In this document: positions 11,367 through 17,817 of the stretch, piece after piece
Layout of the letters: each line of letters opens with the position of its first letter
Position numbering within the stretch: position 1 is the first letter of the stretch
Assembly: GCF_039645985.1 (NCBI RefSeq)
Contig: NZ_CP147919.1
Span: 2,294,001 to 2,358,000, forward strand
Length of the DNA: 64,000 nt
Source of the DNA: Sulfurimonas sp. HSL3-7
Lineage (GTDB): Bacteria > Campylobacterota > Campylobacteria > Campylobacterales > Sulfurimonadaceae
Reading direction: 5' to 3'
Notes under the pieces: model-generated
Told to the model about the DNA's origin: nothing
The model's input: only the letters and a program-made list of their open reading frames with translations
Databases searched by the model: none
Translations under genes and position numbers: made by a program

Positions 11367-11696
11367 TTAAACGCCCTTTATCGCCTGAAGCAGCGTAATC
11401 CCGACCGCAGCGATACCGACGGCTATTGCGGTCCAGTCCGATGCTTTGATCATCTTGTAGATCCGTTTGAGTTCATCATCATTAAGTTCTTCAAAACGGC
11501 GCGAACGGATAAACTTGACGGCATTACGGAAAGAGTCGTCGCCTACCTGGATTTTCCATCGCGGCCGTCCCATCTGTTCGTAAAGATCATGGTGCGCCGA
11601 ATTCAAACGATTAAAAAACGCCTGCGTCGCCAGAATCTGTACCACCATCGCAACAACAAAAACCAATGCCGAAAGTGTAAAAATCGTGTTAAGCAT
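11367..11696 (-). CDS. Small two-helix membrane protein, last gene of the ligase/peptidase operon
   Basis: 109 residues. N-terminal membrane helix (about 3-27), a basic/acidic cytoplasmic-type core (GRPRWKIQVGDDSFRNAVKF, RFEELNDDELKRIYKM) and a C-terminal hydrophobic helix (about 88-106). The topology recalls UspB-like small membrane proteins, but I see no clear family signature. Its ATG overlaps the TGA of the M14 carboxypeptidase gene by one base (TGATG), so it is translated by coupling and is likely part of the same system, perhaps as a membrane anchor. Confidence 0.8.
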   Translation of the reverse strand: MLNTIFTLSALVFVVAMVVQILATQAFFNRLNSAHHDLYEQMGRPRWKIQVGDDSFRNAVKFIRSRRFEELNDDELKRIYKMIKASDWTAIAVGIAAVGITLLQAIKGV

Positions 11697-14287
11697 CAGT
11701 TCTCTATGTTATAGGCGAGTACGGCCGGTTCTGAGATGTGCGGCACCTCATCATAAGCAAAGACTGCATAATATTTACCCACATCCAGATCACCGAAATT
11801 ATCATAGGTATAGTTGTCAGGCCCACCGTAGAGTTTTTGACCATCATAGGCTGATGAAGGGACGTGGAACGGGTTCTTGACCACGATCACCCCTTTAAAC
11901 GCCTCGTCAACCGGGTTATCCCAGTCCAGGCGGATCATTCCGTTCTCGACACTTGCTCTCAGATTCGTCGCCTTTTCGATACCGTAACGGCGTTTTTTAA
12001 TGTAATCAAGAATTAGACGCGGCCGGCACTCCCGTTTGGCATCGAGCCAGTTCACAGATTCCGATTTGGCAAAAGACTTCGACGAGGAGGCTTTGATCAC
12101 AAAGAGGATCTTCTCATTGGCTTGGATCGTATCGACCATCTCCTGGATGGAAAGCGTGTCGAAAACAAAACGCTGCGCCTTGTCCTGACGCAGATCGGCC
12201 ACGCTGACTTCATAACCGACACGTTCGATCACCTCGCGTTCTCTCATCTTTTTAAAGCTCTTCTCCCCATCGCCCATCTTAACCATCTCGATGTGATAGC
12301 GGATACTTGCATTGGCATTGATCTGCCTTGCATCAAGTTCAAGATAGGCATCGGAGACGATCGTATTTTGCATATCCAGTATCTGTGTCATATCAAACTC
12401 GATGCAGCCGTATATACGGCTGCCGTTTTGATCGAATCCCGCCACAAGGCTGGACTCTTTGACCTCCTGTTCCGTGATCGTATATTCCTGTTGCGAGTAG
12501 AGTTCCAACTTCGCTTCCTGGAGGGTATAGGTAACCTCAAGTTTAGGACGAAATGTCAAACCGCCGCTGTGCGGTCCGTAACCGATATCCCACTGCATCA
12601 TCTGCGAAGCTCTGTCTATCGGCAGTTTTGTCGGTCCCTCCATACGAAAGACCGCCTTGCGCCGTTTAAGCGCATCCTGCAATACGTTTCGTTCCTGCTT
12701 ATTGAAACGATAGGTCCGCCAGACCCCTTGTGAAAGCTGGGATGATTTGGTCGCCATGCCGATATAGCCCAGGACTTTGGCATTTTTGACCTCATCAAAA
12801 CTGGCCAGATTATCAATGGTACGTTCATCGACCAGTCCCACACGCCATTCGCCGAATTTCTCGACATGTACGGAAACACGGTTCATCGGATAATACGAGA
12901 TCTGCGCACTTTTGATCAGTGCGTTTTCAGGTACGCTCTCCAGCGAGAAGCTGCTTATACCGTAACACTCACCCTTGTATTCCGAAATACCGACGAACAG
13001 TGAGTTCTCGCCGAAATGCTCTTTGTTTTTCGTTGTCTTCTCCCCCACATAACCGATCTCGCTTCTGAGCGGATAGAGTATCTTCGAAAACATCGTTGTT
13101 TCTGGATCGGTACGGACACCCAGAACCGGGGCGAATGCCGACTTGATATGACGGACTTTGCAAACGGCACGGATAAAGTAGTGGTAGTTCGTCGCTGATT
13201 CAAGCTGTCTGTCCACAAAACTGTGCGAGAGGGTCGTACCGACGCGGTTTGATGACTGAGTGTACCCTTTTAGTTTTTTGGAACGGTAGATCTCAAAATA
13301 GACCTTCTCATCTTCCGGGTAATCCCAACTGAGTTCCACGTCCCTGCTGCCGACCGATGTGGCGATAAAATTACCGACTCTGGGCAGACTTTTCGTCTTG
13401 TCATAATTGGGCACTTCCGAAAGCGCATAGGTCAGAGCTGCGATGTTCTCATTGATGTGCTCGAGCATGTTCTCCTGATAATCGGAGATATTGCGTGAAC
13501 CCACTTCGACCGTCAGCGCCAGGGCTCCCTGCGAATAATAAAACTCGCGCCCGCTGCCTGAGATGAGATGGGTCGGCGGTTTACCCATATGCACGCCGTA
13601 TTCACGCCCCGATACTTTTCTGATCTCTTCGGCCATATTGGCAGAGAGCGTGTTCAGATCCGTCGCATCAATGGCATCTTCGTGAATGAAGTTATGTGCC
13701 GGGAAAAAGACATTCCCCTGAGAGTGGTAATCAAGTGCGATCGTAATGTTCGGATGCGCCAGCACAAAATCTCTGAGTGCGGCTGTCTCAGGTTCTGAAA
13801 AAGGCTGGGGTCCGGAATAGACATTTGACGAAGTGTTTTTGCTTGGCGCGTAACCGATAGAGAAATTGCGGTTAAGGTCTACTCCGAACGTCCCGTCCGC
13901 ATTGTGGCGACGGTTCTTGCGCCAAAATGAGAAGTGGTTGCGTGAGTACTCAAATCCGTCCGGGTTCGCACACGGCACCACGTAGAAAGTGGCGCGTTCC
14001 AGCAACTGGTTCAGCTGCGGATCAAACTCGATATGCTCCAATAAGTGGTGGGCATACTTCACAGCCAACTCTATACCGATCCACTCACGCGCGTGAATAC
14101 TCCCGGTATAAAAGAGGGCCGGCTTACTGTCGGCATCTTCCATCCCTTTCGAGATAGTCACAGCGATCATATCACGCTCTTCCCAGGTCTTGCCTATGGT
14201 GGTTACTTTAAAAAGATCGGGATGAGACGCTTGGGCAGAAAGAAAAAAATCGACACATTCCTGATAAGAGATATACTGTTGGCGCAC
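11696..14287 (-). CDS. Modular M14 zinc carboxypeptidase with fibronectin-like and CBM96-like domains
   Basis: 863 residues from a GTG with AAGGA five bases upstream. The M14 domain (about 5-285) has a full active site: Zn ligands H65 and E68 (HAREW), H188 (DYHSQG), catalytic E261 (LTVEVGSRN), and substrate-binding NPDG and DLNRNF. Then come a fibronectin III-like domain (about 295-385), two beta-rich DNRLRE/CBM96-like modules (about 405-590 and 600-760, each ending in RP-LE/LILDY patterns) and a second fibronectin-like domain (about 770-860). No signal peptide is visible, unusual for this architecture. It should trim C-terminal residues from a peptide; the operon suggests the ligase product is its substrate. 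Confidence 0.93.
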   Translation of the reverse strand: MRQQYISYQECVDFFLSAQASHPDLFKVTTIGKTWEERDMIAVTISKGMEDADSKPALFYTGSIHAREWIGIELAVKYAHHLLEHIEFDPQLNQLLERATFYVVPCANPDGFEYSRNHFSFWRKNRRHNADGTFGVDLNRNFSIGYAPSKNTSSNVYSGPQPFSEPETAALRDFVLAHPNITIALDYHSQGNVFFPAHNFIHEDAIDATDLNTLSANMAEEIRKVSGREYGVHMGKPPTHLISGSGREFYYSQGALALTVEVGSRNISDYQENMLEHINENIAALTYALSEVPNYDKTKSLPRVGNFIATSVGSRDVELSWDYPEDEKVYFEIYRSKKLKGYTQSSNRVGTTLSHSFVDRQLESATNYHYFIRAVCKVRHIKSAFAPVLGVRTDPETTMFSKILYPLRSEIGYVGEKTTKNKEHFGENSLFVGISEYKGECYGISSFSLESVPENALIKSAQISYYPMNRVSVHVEKFGEWRVGLVDERTIDNLASFDEVKNAKVLGYIGMATKSSQLSQGVWRTYRFNKQERNVLQDALKRRKAVFRMEGPTKLPIDRASQMMQWDIGYGPHSGGLTFRPKLEVTYTLQEAKLELYSQQEYTITEQEVKESSLVAGFDQNGSRIYGCIEFDMTQILDMQNTIVSDAYLELDARQINANASIRYHIEMVKMGDGEKSFKKMREREVIERVGYEVSVADLRQDKAQRFVFDTLSIQEMVDTIQANEKILFVIKASSSKSFAKSESVNWLDAKRECRPRLILDYIKKRRYGIEKATNLRASVENGMIRLDWDNPVDEAFKGVIVVKNPFHVPSSAYDGQKLYGGPDNYTYDNFGDLDVGKYYAVFAYDEVPHISEPAVLAYNIEN

Positions 14288-14309
14288 GACGTTCCTTAGA
14301 TGATATAAG

Positions 14310-14348
14310 TGAGAGATGAGAGAAATAGCAACTTGATGCCATCTCTCA
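14310..14348 (-). other. Intra-operon hairpin between ATP-grasp 2 and the carboxypeptidase
   Basis: TGAGAGATG (14310-14318) and CATCTCTCA (14340-14348) form a perfect nine-pair stem with a 21-base loop in the 74-base gap between genes. No T-run follows on the minus strand, so it is more likely an RNA processing or stability element than a terminator. Confidence 0.4.
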
Positions 14349-14361
14349 ATAAAGGGTACCT

Positions 14362-15699
14362 CTAAAAAGGTAATTTGGCGAACAGTTTTGACCAGATACT
14401 GGACTGCTCTTTCGTGATGTAATCATACTCTTCAAGCTCTTCAAAGTTGCTGACCTTTTCATCGTCGATCAGTTTTTTGATCTCCAACGCCGTCTCCTCT
14501 TCCATGGAGTAGAGCGACATCAGTTCGGTCAATGTTACGTCTTTGAATTCAACTTTTCCGTCACCCTGCACTGTCGATGTGCTCTCTTCACTTTTTTCGA
14601 AAGCCTCCTTAACGACCGTTGGCAGTTTCTCCTCTTTCAGTGGCGCAATTGAGTCCGGGATATCACTCTCAACCGACTCATCAGTACGTTCCATGTCAAA
14701 ATTGCCTTTGTCGGCCAACCAGTACGCCCCGTCAGCAGACGGTTCATACTTGGCGAAATAGAGGTGACGCAGGGTACGCAGCACGGACGAGTCCATTTTG
14801 CCCAACTCTTCCCATGAGAAAAGCGGTACATGCGGCATTCTGAATGTTCCCCCGCTTAGGTCCCACATGATGTATTGACAGATCCAGTCACGGATGTAAG
14901 GAAAGGCTGCAAATGCTGTTGCACACTCTAAAATATACGGTTCATCGGTATTTTCATCAATAGCAATATCACATGCCCAATATTCCGCTTTAGCCGCTTT
15001 GGAAGCTTTAACCGCTAATTCAAGTGCGTTCATCGGTACGTTTTCGTAACTCATTGACCCGCCCTGAGAGGTGTTCGTAATCCACTGCCCCTCTCCCGAA
15101 AAACGCCAGAAAGCACAAACCGGTTTATGCCCGATCAGCATAACGCGGATGTCCCCGCTGTATTTTAGAGGGATCGCATCTTGCGTGTAGATCGGGTTGT
15201 ATTTTTTCTCATCTAAAAGTGCTTTCGCCTCAGCATAAGAGTCTGCTTTGTGTACAAAATACCCCCCGTAGTTTGAGGGGCCATACGAACGTTTGATGAT
15301 CTGCGGGTATTTTGCCTTTTTAAGATAGTCGTACCCCTCATCTTTATCATAGAAGATCCCTGTTTTCGGTGCCTGAATATCATATTTCTCACAAAAGAGT
15401 GTCACGTTCTCTTTTGATTTGTTCGGAAACTGCGTCTCTAACGACGGGATAAAACGGACATGCGGCAATGCTTTTGCGATCTCTCTGAATGTCTCATAGG
15501 CTGTCGCCGGGATATTACCGACCAAAACATCGATGTTTTTACGACGGACCTCATTGATAAAGCGCGTTTTATCATTTTTCCAGTGGTAGGTCACTATCTC
15601 TATCTTATCCGGCCACCCTTTAAAGTTGCTTTTGTCAAAAAAGCGCAGTACATAATCCATATAGAGCAAACCGAGTTTCGGTAATTTTTTATTTCCCAT
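14362..15699 (-). CDS. RimK-like ATP-grasp protein 2, with degenerate metal site and C-terminal helical extension
   Basis: 445 residues. An N-terminal pre-ATP-grasp region (about 1-90) is followed by an ATP-grasp core (about 95-300) with PQIIKRSYGPSNYGGYFV as nucleotide lysine/glycine loop and CDIAIDENTDEPYILECA as metal-binding strand. The usual E-x-N metal pair reads E258-C259-A260, so the Asn is missing. A poorly conserved acidic linker (about 320-395) leads to a helical tail (about 396-445: TLTELMSLYSMEEETALEI) that resembles a helix-hairpin-helix. Second ligase of the operon, nine bases after ATP-grasp 1. It may be a catalytically altered partner or recogniser. Confidence 0.85.
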   Translation of the reverse strand: MGNKKLPKLGLLYMDYVLRFFDKSNFKGWPDKIEIVTYHWKNDKTRFINEVRRKNIDVLVGNIPATAYETFREIAKALPHVRFIPSLETQFPNKSKENVTLFCEKYDIQAPKTGIFYDKDEGYDYLKKAKYPQIIKRSYGPSNYGGYFVHKADSYAEAKALLDEKKYNPIYTQDAIPLKYSGDIRVMLIGHKPVCAFWRFSGEGQWITNTSQGGSMSYENVPMNALELAVKASKAAKAEYWACDIAIDENTDEPYILECATAFAAFPYIRDWICQYIMWDLSGGTFRMPHVPLFSWEELGKMDSSVLRTLRHLYFAKYEPSADGAYWLADKGNFDMERTDESVESDIPDSIAPLKEEKLPTVVKEAFEKSEESTSTVQGDGKVEFKDVTLTELMSLYSMEEETALEIKKLIDDEKVSNFEELEEYDYITKEQSSIWSKLFAKLPF

Positions 15700-15708
15700 T
15701 AATCATCC

Positions 15709-16632
15709 TTATTTTTTTGTGATTCGATCGATCATATTGACGATCAGATCGATCTTTTTATCGTTAAAATCGAGCCCCATTGCCTCTTGTTCCGGTGTTG
15801 CGAAAGCAGGAATCCCGTTGACCTCAAGGACCACATATTCCTCTTTTTCTTCATCGTACAGGATATCCACACCGGCAATTTCCAAGCCGATCGCCTTCGT
15901 TGCACGTTTTGCCAGTTCGACAATCTCATCATTGGCCTCACGCAAGATGACACTGCCGCCGGATGTGATATTTGTTCGCCAGTCTCGACCGCCCGCCTTA
16001 CGTCCGTAGCAAGCGACAAACTCACCGTCAACAATATCAACCCGAAAATCTGAATAGTCATTTTTGATGAAACGTTCCACATAAACATTACGGGCATCGC
16101 TTTTATTGATAAACGGAAGCAGCGTATCGAGTGTTACGCGGTTTTCGATCAGGGCCATACCGTTACCGCCCCAGCCGTCGATCGGCTTATAGACCATTTT
16201 TCCCCATTCGTCATATTGGTCAACCATCCCGTTCATATCCTCTTTATGGCAGAGGTAGAAATCAGGCGTCCGGACACCGGCCTTTGCTAGCATCATGTTT
16301 GATTGGAACTTGTCTTCGGCGATAGCAAAAGACCTAAAATTGTTGAGTGTCGGAATAAACTCGCTGAGCACCTGGTACATATAGACCTGTGCAACGGTCT
16401 GCTCACCGGCATTGTAGGAAAAGAAAGCGTCAAGTGCCGTCATATCAAGACCTTTGCAGTGGATTCCCTCTTTGGAGCCTTCGGCAAAACGCAGATCTAG
16501 TCCTGTAACCGAATTGATACCGCGCTCCAACAGTTTTAAGATTAACTTCTGCTCGATCTCCGGTCCGCCGCTGTTTTGATACATCCATATACCGACCTTG
16601 CGATCGCATTCCAAACTATCAGAAACTAACAT
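15709..16632 (-). CDS. RimK-like ATP-grasp amide ligase 1
   Basis: 307 residues. ATP-grasp ligase related to RimK/glutathione-synthetase-like enzymes, which activate a carboxylate as acyl phosphate and join it to an amine. Visible sites: nucleotide lysine K149 with the flexible loop PIDGWGGNGMALIE, E186 (VERF), basic substrate region GRKAGGRDWRTNITSGG, and metal ligands D256 (VDIL) and E270/N272 (VLEVNG). Full canonical set, so likely active. Its ribosome site (AAGGAG) is encoded in the last codons of the M20 gene, only two bases separate the genes, and translation should be coupled. Confidence 0.92.
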   Translation of the reverse strand: MLVSDSLECDRKVGIWMYQNSGGPEIEQKLILKLLERGINSVTGLDLRFAEGSKEGIHCKGLDMTALDAFFSYNAGEQTVAQVYMYQVLSEFIPTLNNFRSFAIAEDKFQSNMMLAKAGVRTPDFYLCHKEDMNGMVDQYDEWGKMVYKPIDGWGGNGMALIENRVTLDTLLPFINKSDARNVYVERFIKNDYSDFRVDIVDGEFVACYGRKAGGRDWRTNITSGGSVILREANDEIVELAKRATKAIGLEIAGVDILYDEEKEEYVVLEVNGIPAFATPEQEAMGLDFNDKKIDLIVNMIDRITKK

Positions 16633-16634
16633 CC

Positions 16635-17741
16635 CTACTCCTTAAACCCCAGGTTTTCAATAAAATAGCCTATCAACTGTTTTGAAAGCGCAATACGTTC
16701 TACAAAACTCTGCTTGTTGGCACGTTCATGCACCGTATGGTCGCCGTCACCGAAGGGGCCCAGTCCATCAAGCGTAATAACGCCGCAGGAACTGACGATA
16801 TTGGCGTCACTGACCCCGCCACGCTCTTCTGTCGGCAGTTTATGACCCGTTATCCGCTCAAGATCATCAACAAAATCGAATGAACTTTTCGAGCTCATCA
16901 TCACGTCACGCTGTATGCCGCCACTCAGTACGTTTTTTGTACCTTCTATATACGAAGTCTTGGCTATCTCATCGATGGCCTTTAACACACGGTCACGCTC
17001 ATCTGTTGTCTTGTAGCGCAATTCAAACGTGAGATGTGCATGAGGCGAGATAGTATTCGCACCGATTCCCCCTTCTATCTTGCCAACATTGACTGTCGTT
17101 CCTTTCTTCAAGTCCGTCAATGCAACAAGCCGCTGCAGTTTACAGGCGGCTTCGAGATTGGCGTCAACCCCATCGGCATAAAAATTGCCCGCGTGTTTGG
17201 CCACACCTGTTATATCGATAAAGAAGGTACCGACACCCTTGCGTCCCGTTACCACTTCGCCGTTTGGACCGGCTGCCTCATAGACCAGACAATAATCATA
17301 TTCCGGGGCCAACTGCGCCGTAAGGAGTTTGGAATCATCGCTGCCGGTCTCCTCGTCGCTCACAAAAAGAACATCGACATTGGTGATCGCCATCCCCTCT
17401 TCTCTGAGCTGACGCAATGCCTCGAGGGCAACGATATTACCGCCCTTCATATCACAGACGCCCGGACCGTAGACCCATTCGGCATCCTCGCTGAAGCCCT
17501 CGAACTTACCCTCGGGGAAAACGGTATCGAGATGCCCGAGCAATAGAAGTCTTTTGCCCCCTTTATAAGGCGAACGATAAAGACGATGTTCGCCGATAAG
17601 TTCCCGCTGATACTGTTTAATTTCAAAACCAAGTTCACTGAGCCACGCATCAAAAACAGTGCCGACCTTATCGACACCGCTTTTATTCTTGGTAAAAGAG
17701 TTGATTTCAATAACTTTTTTAAGATCGGCCAGATAGTCCAC
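16635..17741 (-). CDS. M20-family metallopeptidase (carboxypeptidase G2-like), first gene of the operon
   Basis: 368 residues from a GTG with AAGGA five to six bases upstream. Di-zinc M20 aminoacylase/carboxypeptidase: H70-L-D72 (GHLDTVFPEG), bridging D97 (YGPGVCDMKGG), catalytic E130/E131 (VSDEETGSDDS), E155 (VYEAAG) and the C-terminal His (DGDHTVHERANK). A dimerisation domain sits between. CPG2-like members remove C-terminal Glu or other acidic residues from conjugates. No signal peptide, so cytoplasmic. It is the promoter-proximal gene of a five-gene unit with two ATP-grasp ligases, an M14 carboxypeptidase and a small membrane protein. Confidence 0.93.
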   Translation of the reverse strand: MDYLADLKKVIEINSFTKNKSGVDKVGTVFDAWLSELGFEIKQYQRELIGEHRLYRSPYKGGKRLLLLGHLDTVFPEGKFEGFSEDAEWVYGPGVCDMKGGNIVALEALRQLREEGMAITNVDVLFVSDEETGSDDSKLLTAQLAPEYDYCLVYEAAGPNGEVVTGRKGVGTFFIDITGVAKHAGNFYADGVDANLEAACKLQRLVALTDLKKGTTVNVGKIEGGIGANTISPHAHLTFELRYKTTDERDRVLKAIDEIAKTSYIEGTKNVLSGGIQRDVMMSSKSSFDFVDDLERITGHKLPTEERGGVSDANIVSSCGVITLDGLGPFGDGDHTVHERANKQSFVERIALSKQLIGYFIENLGFKE

Positions 17742-17811
17742 AGTTTTCCTTCTTTGAAAATAGAAACTGTATTAGAAACTTATTACAAATCAATAACAGT
17801 AAATATGGACA

Positions 17812-17817
17812 ATTATA
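17812..17817 (-). promoter_or_regulatory. -10 box (TATAAT) for the peptidase/ATP-grasp operon
   Basis: On the minus strand TATAAT stands about 70 bases before the GTG of the M20 gene in an AT-rich stretch. It is a perfect -10 and lies downstream of the rplS terminator, so the operon has its own promoter. No convincing -35; Campylobacterota promoters often lack one. Confidence 0.55.

Follow-up and report, generated by a model that had tools for sequence, protein, structure and literature searches.

The 64,000-nucleotide stretch of Sulfurimonas sp. HSL3-7 DNA analyzed here (contig NZ_CP147919.1, positions 2,294,001 to 2,358,000; hereafter the window) carries on its minus strand a compact cluster of genes encoding an M20 metallopeptidase, two distinct RimK-type ATP-grasp ligases (LIG1 and LIG2), an M14 zinc carboxypeptidase, and a small membrane protein (TM) (Table 1). 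The host genome (G000 in our collection, where G, C, and L numbers denote genomes, contigs, and loci) is a single contig of 2.87 Mb. An initial annotation of the window had described these genes as a five-gene unit behind a promoter-like TATAAT. All five open reading frames (ORFs) were recovered as described, with transcription proceeding from 17741 toward 11367 and gaps of 2, 9, 74, and -1 bases in the order M20, LIG1, LIG2, M14, and TM; the ribosome-binding site of LIG1 does lie inside the M20 gene, its AAGGAG overlapping the final M20 codons, and the assignments to the M20, RimK-type, and M14 families hold in Pfam. Two elements of that description fell away. The TATAAT hexamer is not taken as a promoter because 45 copies occur in the window (31.7 expected) and a sigma-70 scan found no promoter-like pair at its position. 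TM, which has no match in Pfam, was rejected as a core component because it is lineage specific: its homologs are confined to a few close relatives and are absent from most homologous loci. Since, moreover, no other gene is linked to the cluster throughout the loci that we collected, the unit consists of four genes, M20, LIG1, LIG2, and M14. Two relatives of TM show weak similarity to UspB (E = 0.0009 and 0.009), under the Pfam cutoff.

Table 1. Genes and candidate signal of the cluster, in window coordinates
Feature	Position	Strand	Remarks
M20 metallopeptidase, carboxypeptidase G2-like	16635-17741	minus	First gene; 368 amino acids (aa), GTG start
LIG1, RimK-type ATP-grasp ligase	15709-16632	minus	307 aa
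LIG2, divergent RimK-type ATP-grasp ligase with helical C-terminal domain	14362-15699	minus	445 aa
M14 zinc carboxypeptidase of the CPA/CPB type; also contains FN3 and other beta-rich regions	11696-14287	minus	863 aa, GTG start
TM, small two-helix membrane protein	11367-11696	minus	109 aa; lineage specific, probably accessory
TATAAT hexamer upstream of M20	17812-17817	minus	Candidate only; hexamer count and sigma-70 scan

The four genes are inherited together. Each protein was searched for in the same 249 Campylobacterota genomes, representing 56 sampled genera. LIG2 is present in 23 of them, intact in 22 and as a remnant in one (G037), and the 22 genomes whose LIG2 is intact are precisely those that contain M14. 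LIG1 occurs in 21 of these 22 and additionally in G105, and close M20 orthologs (at least 57% identity) occur in 21 of the 22 and additionally in G105 and G061. A naive calculation puts the chance that two sets of 22 coincide among 249 genomes at ~10^-31, a value whose true significance is made smaller by shared ancestry; the positive genomes, however, are spread over 14 of the 56 genera in a patchy, all-or-nothing pattern, and this spread over families, together with the exceptions, shows repeated linked gain or loss. The LIG2 remnant of G037 (L030/L052; G037:C1:157170-157472) has two in-frame stops and is flanked by efp and dnaE; LIG1, M14, and a close M20 are all missing from that genome, and the whole unit was lost in this case. 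The remaining exceptions are partial: G105 keeps only M20 and LIG1, G218 only LIG2 and M14, and G061 only M20. Thin as this evidence is, it hints that M20 may pair with LIG1 and M14 with LIG2. It is also what would be seen if the unit comprised two coupled but separate pairs with different substrates, M20 opposing LIG1 and M14 opposing LIG2. We consider that arrangement improbable, given that the split is seen in two genomes only and that two others (G009 and G129) keep LIG1 beside M14, with LIG2 moved away.

The same association is evident in gene neighborhoods. Among 84,980 species genomes scanned, 80 loci were recovered, and with the regions from the phylum genomes added, 101 loci hold LIG2. 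We limited the neighborhood count to the 51 LIG2 loci with at least 3.5 kb of flanking sequence on both sides and counted partners within 6 kb: all four genes are found in 44 loci, LIG2 alone in 6, and LIG2 with only M14 in 1. Together with the identical LIG2 and M14 sets (22 of 249 genomes), these counts bear out the co-conservation expected by the initial annotation for four of its five genes. LIG1, LIG2, and M14 are nearly always codirectional, with overlaps or few-base gaps (mostly -8 to +25 bp between LIG1 and LIG2), and M20 is placed in front on the same strand in 46 of the complete loci and divergently in 22. The sites of the unit vary (the rplS-trmD-rimM operon, argG, and others), with no flanking gene linked throughout. 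In three loci (L073, L085, and L091), an extra copy of LIG1 adjoins the unit. In Sulfurimonas-type genomes, a second, solitary form of LIG2 follows efp at a distance of 11 to 103 bp (eleven loci); a lone LIG2 directly downstream of efp, and often upstream of dnaE, was noted at L043, L049, L096, L098, L112, L118, L119, L122, and L124-L127. The sole LIG2 of G009 and G129 occupies this efp site, with a tight M20-LIG1-M14 cluster about 0.8 Mb away; as both genomes keep all four genes though split, separation of the genes does not entail loss of the function.

Beyond the phylum, the unit was recovered twice. The named contigs from the genome scan are all campylobacterotal except for one from a Cycloclasticus metagenome-assembled genome (MAG; L130, G249:C8), in which the gene order rplT-pheS-pheT-ihfA, read by eye, precedes the unit. 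We read this as a gammaproteobacterial context and, on the strength of that gene order, rejected contamination as the cause of the match. The insertion lies just after the rplT-pheS-pheT-ihfA operon, a candidate integration site. No other unit was found in 369 further genomes of the same class. The only LIG2 match in a plasmid collection comes from a 2.1-Mb replicon of Photobacterium sp. DA100 (Vibrionaceae), which has all four genes (identities of 57, 55, 66, and 45%), with a divergent M20. When the four proteins are concatenated for a tree (midpoint rooted, one method), the Photobacterium and Cycloclasticus units group together inside the divergent-M20 clade. Horizontal transfer of the unit has thus occurred, but it is rare. 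A patchy distribution combined with horizontal transfer is reminiscent of systems involved in biological conflict, and because ATP-grasp ligases mature graspetides, we considered a conflict-related graspetide-like peptide or an anti-phage system. This is very improbable: the weak or absent matches of the ligases to graspetide maturase models speak against a graspetide, as do the spaces between LIG1, LIG2, and M14, which at most loci leave no room for a precursor gene, and the lack of a conserved flanking gene, in a search limited to the unit and its flanks. A defense system was rejected because the PADLOC families match none of the five proteins, and a phage or virus origin was rejected because we found no phage match and no relative in viral contigs.

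Both ligases contain the RimK domain (PF08443; 83.0 bits for LIG1 and 55.6 bits for LIG2, with a Pfam gathering score of 21), whereas none of the NCBIfam equivalog or subfamily models is matched at its curated cutoff by LIG1, LIG2, or M20. The best curated models for LIG1 are MptN (NF040720; 137.4 bits against a cutoff of 350) and the rimK_fam model (TIGR00768; 128.1 against 143.4), and LIG2 scores 69.4 bits with the latter; neither ligase reaches the cutoff of the LysX model. RimK enzymes are the best PDB match of LIG1, whose metal-binding D256, E270, and N272 are invariant in 31 homologs. For LIG2, an AlphaFold2 model (mean predicted local distance difference test [pLDDT] score of 71.6) has RimK as its top Foldseek match, with ArgX and LysX also recovered from the PDB, and its ATP-grasp core is about 70% identical across families. 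D244 and E258 of LIG2 are invariant, and in every homolog the last metal motif has E-C-A in place of E-x-N. PurK is an active ATP-grasp enzyme that likewise reads ExA; as the rest of the site is also invariant, we did not accept that LIG2 is a dead enzyme. Past residue 330, LIG2 continues into a variable linker followed by a helical domain, in which, among 42 homologs, the helix-hairpin-helix families HHH_5 and HHH_3 were matched in 22 and 21, respectively; the LIG2 tail in the window is without a Pfam match, and its model shows helices at 401 to 442 (pLDDT near 80). The likeness to RimK, the ribosomal protein S6 glutamate ligase, thus extends to the ATP-grasp fold, but the unit differs from it in having two distinct ligases, two carboxypeptidases, and the helix-hairpin-helix tail, and the genome has its own canonical RimK.

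LIG1 also gives partial matches, far from the curated cutoffs, to the models of cyanophycin synthetase and N-acetylglutaminylglutamine synthetase. These raise an alternative in which the ligases would join free amino acids into a free oligopeptide or a cyanophycin-like polymer, serving as a store or compatible solute that the peptidases would mobilize. Two ligases and two exopeptidases in a unit without a carrier or acceptor gene would suit such a role, every named host is a marine or vent/sediment-type bacterium, and the MptN-like ligase MyfB makes polyglutamate in vitro (PMC8141765). Cyanophycin synthetase and cyanophycinase are similar in that enzymes ligating and hydrolyzing an amide polymer are encoded in a single cluster. 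However, neither ligase comes near the curated cutoff of the models concerned, the Mur-ligase half is absent, and the four genes include neither the CphA architecture nor a cyanophycinase; the helix-hairpin-helix tail of LIG2 would, moreover, be unexpected in an enzyme making a free metabolite. We hold a storage or solute role to be possible, if unlikely.

The two peptidases also retain their active-site residues. M20 matches PF01546 (75.9 bits) as well as PF07687, and its closest solved relative is carboxypeptidase G2 (CPG2; PDB code 1cg2) at 120.6 bits (E = 6.8e-34), the next family scoring 53.8 bits; with the glutamate carboxypeptidase model PRK06133, it scores 182.7, under the cutoff of 349. 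Its H70, D72, D97, E130, E131, E155, and H335 align with the metal and base residues of M20 enzymes and are invariant in 30 homologs. M14 matches PF00246 (199 bits) and retrieves CPA4 and its relatives at E values of about 1e-33; its modeled fold, of the pancreatic carboxypeptidase type, matches CPA4, CPT, CPB, and CPO (Foldseek E = 2.7e-17 to CPA4), and its catalytic residues H65, E68, H188, R126, N139, R140, and E261 are likewise invariant in 30 homologs. Beyond the catalytic domain, FN3 is matched, beta-rich regions weakly match DNRLRE, and inspection by eye, with no computed prediction, revealed no signal peptide. CPG2 is a folate hydrolase, and this, along with MptN as the best curated match of LIG1, recalls the side chains of coenzymes: LIG1 and LIG2 might extend a folate-, pterin-, or furan-type cofactor with glutamates, in the manner of MptN, CofF, MyfA, and MyfB, with M20 and M14 trimming them. 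MyfA and MyfB provide a precedent for a pair of ATP-grasp enzymes (PMC8141765). We regard this as a rather unlikely explanation: a gene of cofactor biosynthesis is linked to the unit in none of about 100 loci, and the scattered presence in 14 of 56 genera speaks against an essential coenzyme. The unit further differs from the MptN and MyfA-MyfB systems in including peptidases and in having a LIG1 that scores 137 against the MptN cutoff of 350.

Two further systems invite comparison. In LysX/ArgX-LysW-LysK, a carrier system for lysine or arginine, a RimK-like ligase is likewise found with an M20 hydrolase (LysK), and LIG2 resembles LysX and ArgX; the unit differs in its M14 enzyme and in ligases that fall under the LysX cutoff. 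We rejected a LysW carrier system because LysW is absent from all 22 positive genomes; it was found in 4 of 14 controls. The eukaryotic TTLL/CCP system offers the closer functional parallel: on tubulin, the chains that ATP-grasp ligases start and lengthen are taken down by M14 deglutamylases (PMC9117372). The unit is distinguished from it by being bacterial, by its RimK-type rather than TTL-type ligases, by its CPA/CPB-type rather than CCP-type M14 enzyme, and by the additional M20.

Amide ligation and trimming, as the class of chemistry performed by the unit, is well supported. Within this class, we tentatively favor, at somewhat less than an even chance, a self-contained reversible cycle that ligates an acidic residue, probably glutamate, to an acceptor and trims it off again. 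LIG1 and LIG2 would activate a carboxylate of the acceptor with ATP, by the acyl-phosphate chemistry of ATP-grasp enzymes, and attach an amino acid there, most probably glutamate; the two ligases would serve different steps, such as the start and the extension of a chain, and M14 and M20 would strip the residues with a matching division of labor. Such a cycle would resemble TTLL/CCP or RimK rather than a biosynthetic pathway with a dedicated carrier. The make-and-trim cycle put forward in the initial annotation thus stands as the best reading, with the membrane protein, as a lineage-specific gene, removed from the system. The four-gene unit, its joint inheritance, the enzyme families, the conserved catalytic residues, and the horizontal transfer are computational findings; the identity of the residue as glutamate, the cleavage of these very bonds by the peptidases, and a protein as the acceptor are points that we infer.

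A glutamate or another acidic residue is pointed to independently by three of the four proteins, namely, M14 with the tentative placement of its Arg, the CPG2-like M20, and the MptN/RimK-like LIG1. MptN and RimK are glutamate ligases, and CPG2 removes C-terminal glutamate. In the HMMER alignment of M14 with CPA4, SGSGREFYY lies over SGSSIDWAY, which puts R247 at CPA position 255, the site that governs specificity and is held by Ile in CPA4 and Asp in CPB; among 30 homologs, this residue is R in 29 and K in one. In human carboxypeptidase O, an enzyme with a preference for acidic residues, this site is occupied by Arg. The near-invariant Arg of M14 hints, from its place in the alignment, that the enzyme may select acidic C termini. 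A literature search on CPO specificity gave no direct match, and a short-fragment PDB search aimed at carboxypeptidase O returned nothing. As regards chain formation, the MptN-like MyfB makes long glutamate chains (PMC8141765). For the acceptor, the helix-hairpin-helix tail of most LIG2 proteins and the repeated nearness to translation genes (rplS and efp) suggest a nucleic acid or translation protein, although the nearness could be accounted for by synteny; the tail and the efp-LIG2 adjacency in Sulfurimonas-type genomes would make a protein of that machinery our first candidate, albeit as a guess.

Several points weigh against this reading. No acceptor was identified, and the amino acid specificity is predicted. 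The placement of R247 at position 255 comes from one alignment; when MAFFT is given two distantly related bacterial M14 proteins, the gap falls elsewhere, and the loop is one of low model confidence. LIG2, without the Asn of the ExN motif, could be a noncatalytic partner, although its site is compatible with activity, and its adjacency to efp may be inherited synteny. A free small molecule or polymer as the product is, as said of the storage alternative, a less likely but possible outcome. The most specific form of the favored cycle would be a bacterial counterpart of TTLL/CCP, a dedicated, horizontally mobile system for reversible protein glutamylation in which one ligase initiates, the other elongates, and two enzymes erase, and which the LIG2 tail would aim at a nucleic acid-bound or translation protein (e.g., EF-P or a ribosome-associated factor). 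We judge this conceivable but rather improbable.

The initial annotation did not recognize the set as a named pathway, and we concur, with the ligases and M20 under all NCBIfam equivalog and subfamily cutoffs and no paper on the set found. A literature search for the gene set and for ligases fused to helix-hairpin-helix domains gave no direct description; older surveys of amidoligase operons, above all that of Iyer et al. 2009, lay outside this search and may list part of it. Within the literature searched, we found no description of the four-gene set, of a RimK-like core fused to helix-hairpin-helix tails, or of the paired erasers; each of the enzyme families is already known. Work on tubulin has made the reversible attachment of amino acids to proteins a well-explored subject in eukaryotes, and the best-known bacterial case is RimK acting on S6; a mobile four-gene unit of writers and erasers would offer a genetically simple model and explain conserved genes that carry generic family annotations. 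If the product is instead a free polymer or solute, the unit would represent new storage or osmoprotectant chemistry of marine sulfur-oxidizing bacteria. In Photobacterium damselae, the transcript of an M20 metallopeptidase (A0J47_RS07600) is ~27-fold higher at high salt (PMC10308900); this gene could not be linked with the M20 described here and carries no weight in our argument.

The genome of the window encodes three further ATP-grasp ligases. One is the separate canonical RimK (L001, G000:C1:2420977; 220 bits), near a gene recognized by eye as encoding an AstE/AspA-like deacylase. The neighbors of the other two were likewise recognized by eye, with no hidden Markov model applied: a glutathione-synthase-like ligase (L004, G000:C1:677909) lies beside a protein resembling the DUF1704 (QEGLA) carboxypeptidase family, and the third ligase (L007, G000:C1:610968) adjoins a multipass membrane protein and a TPR protein.

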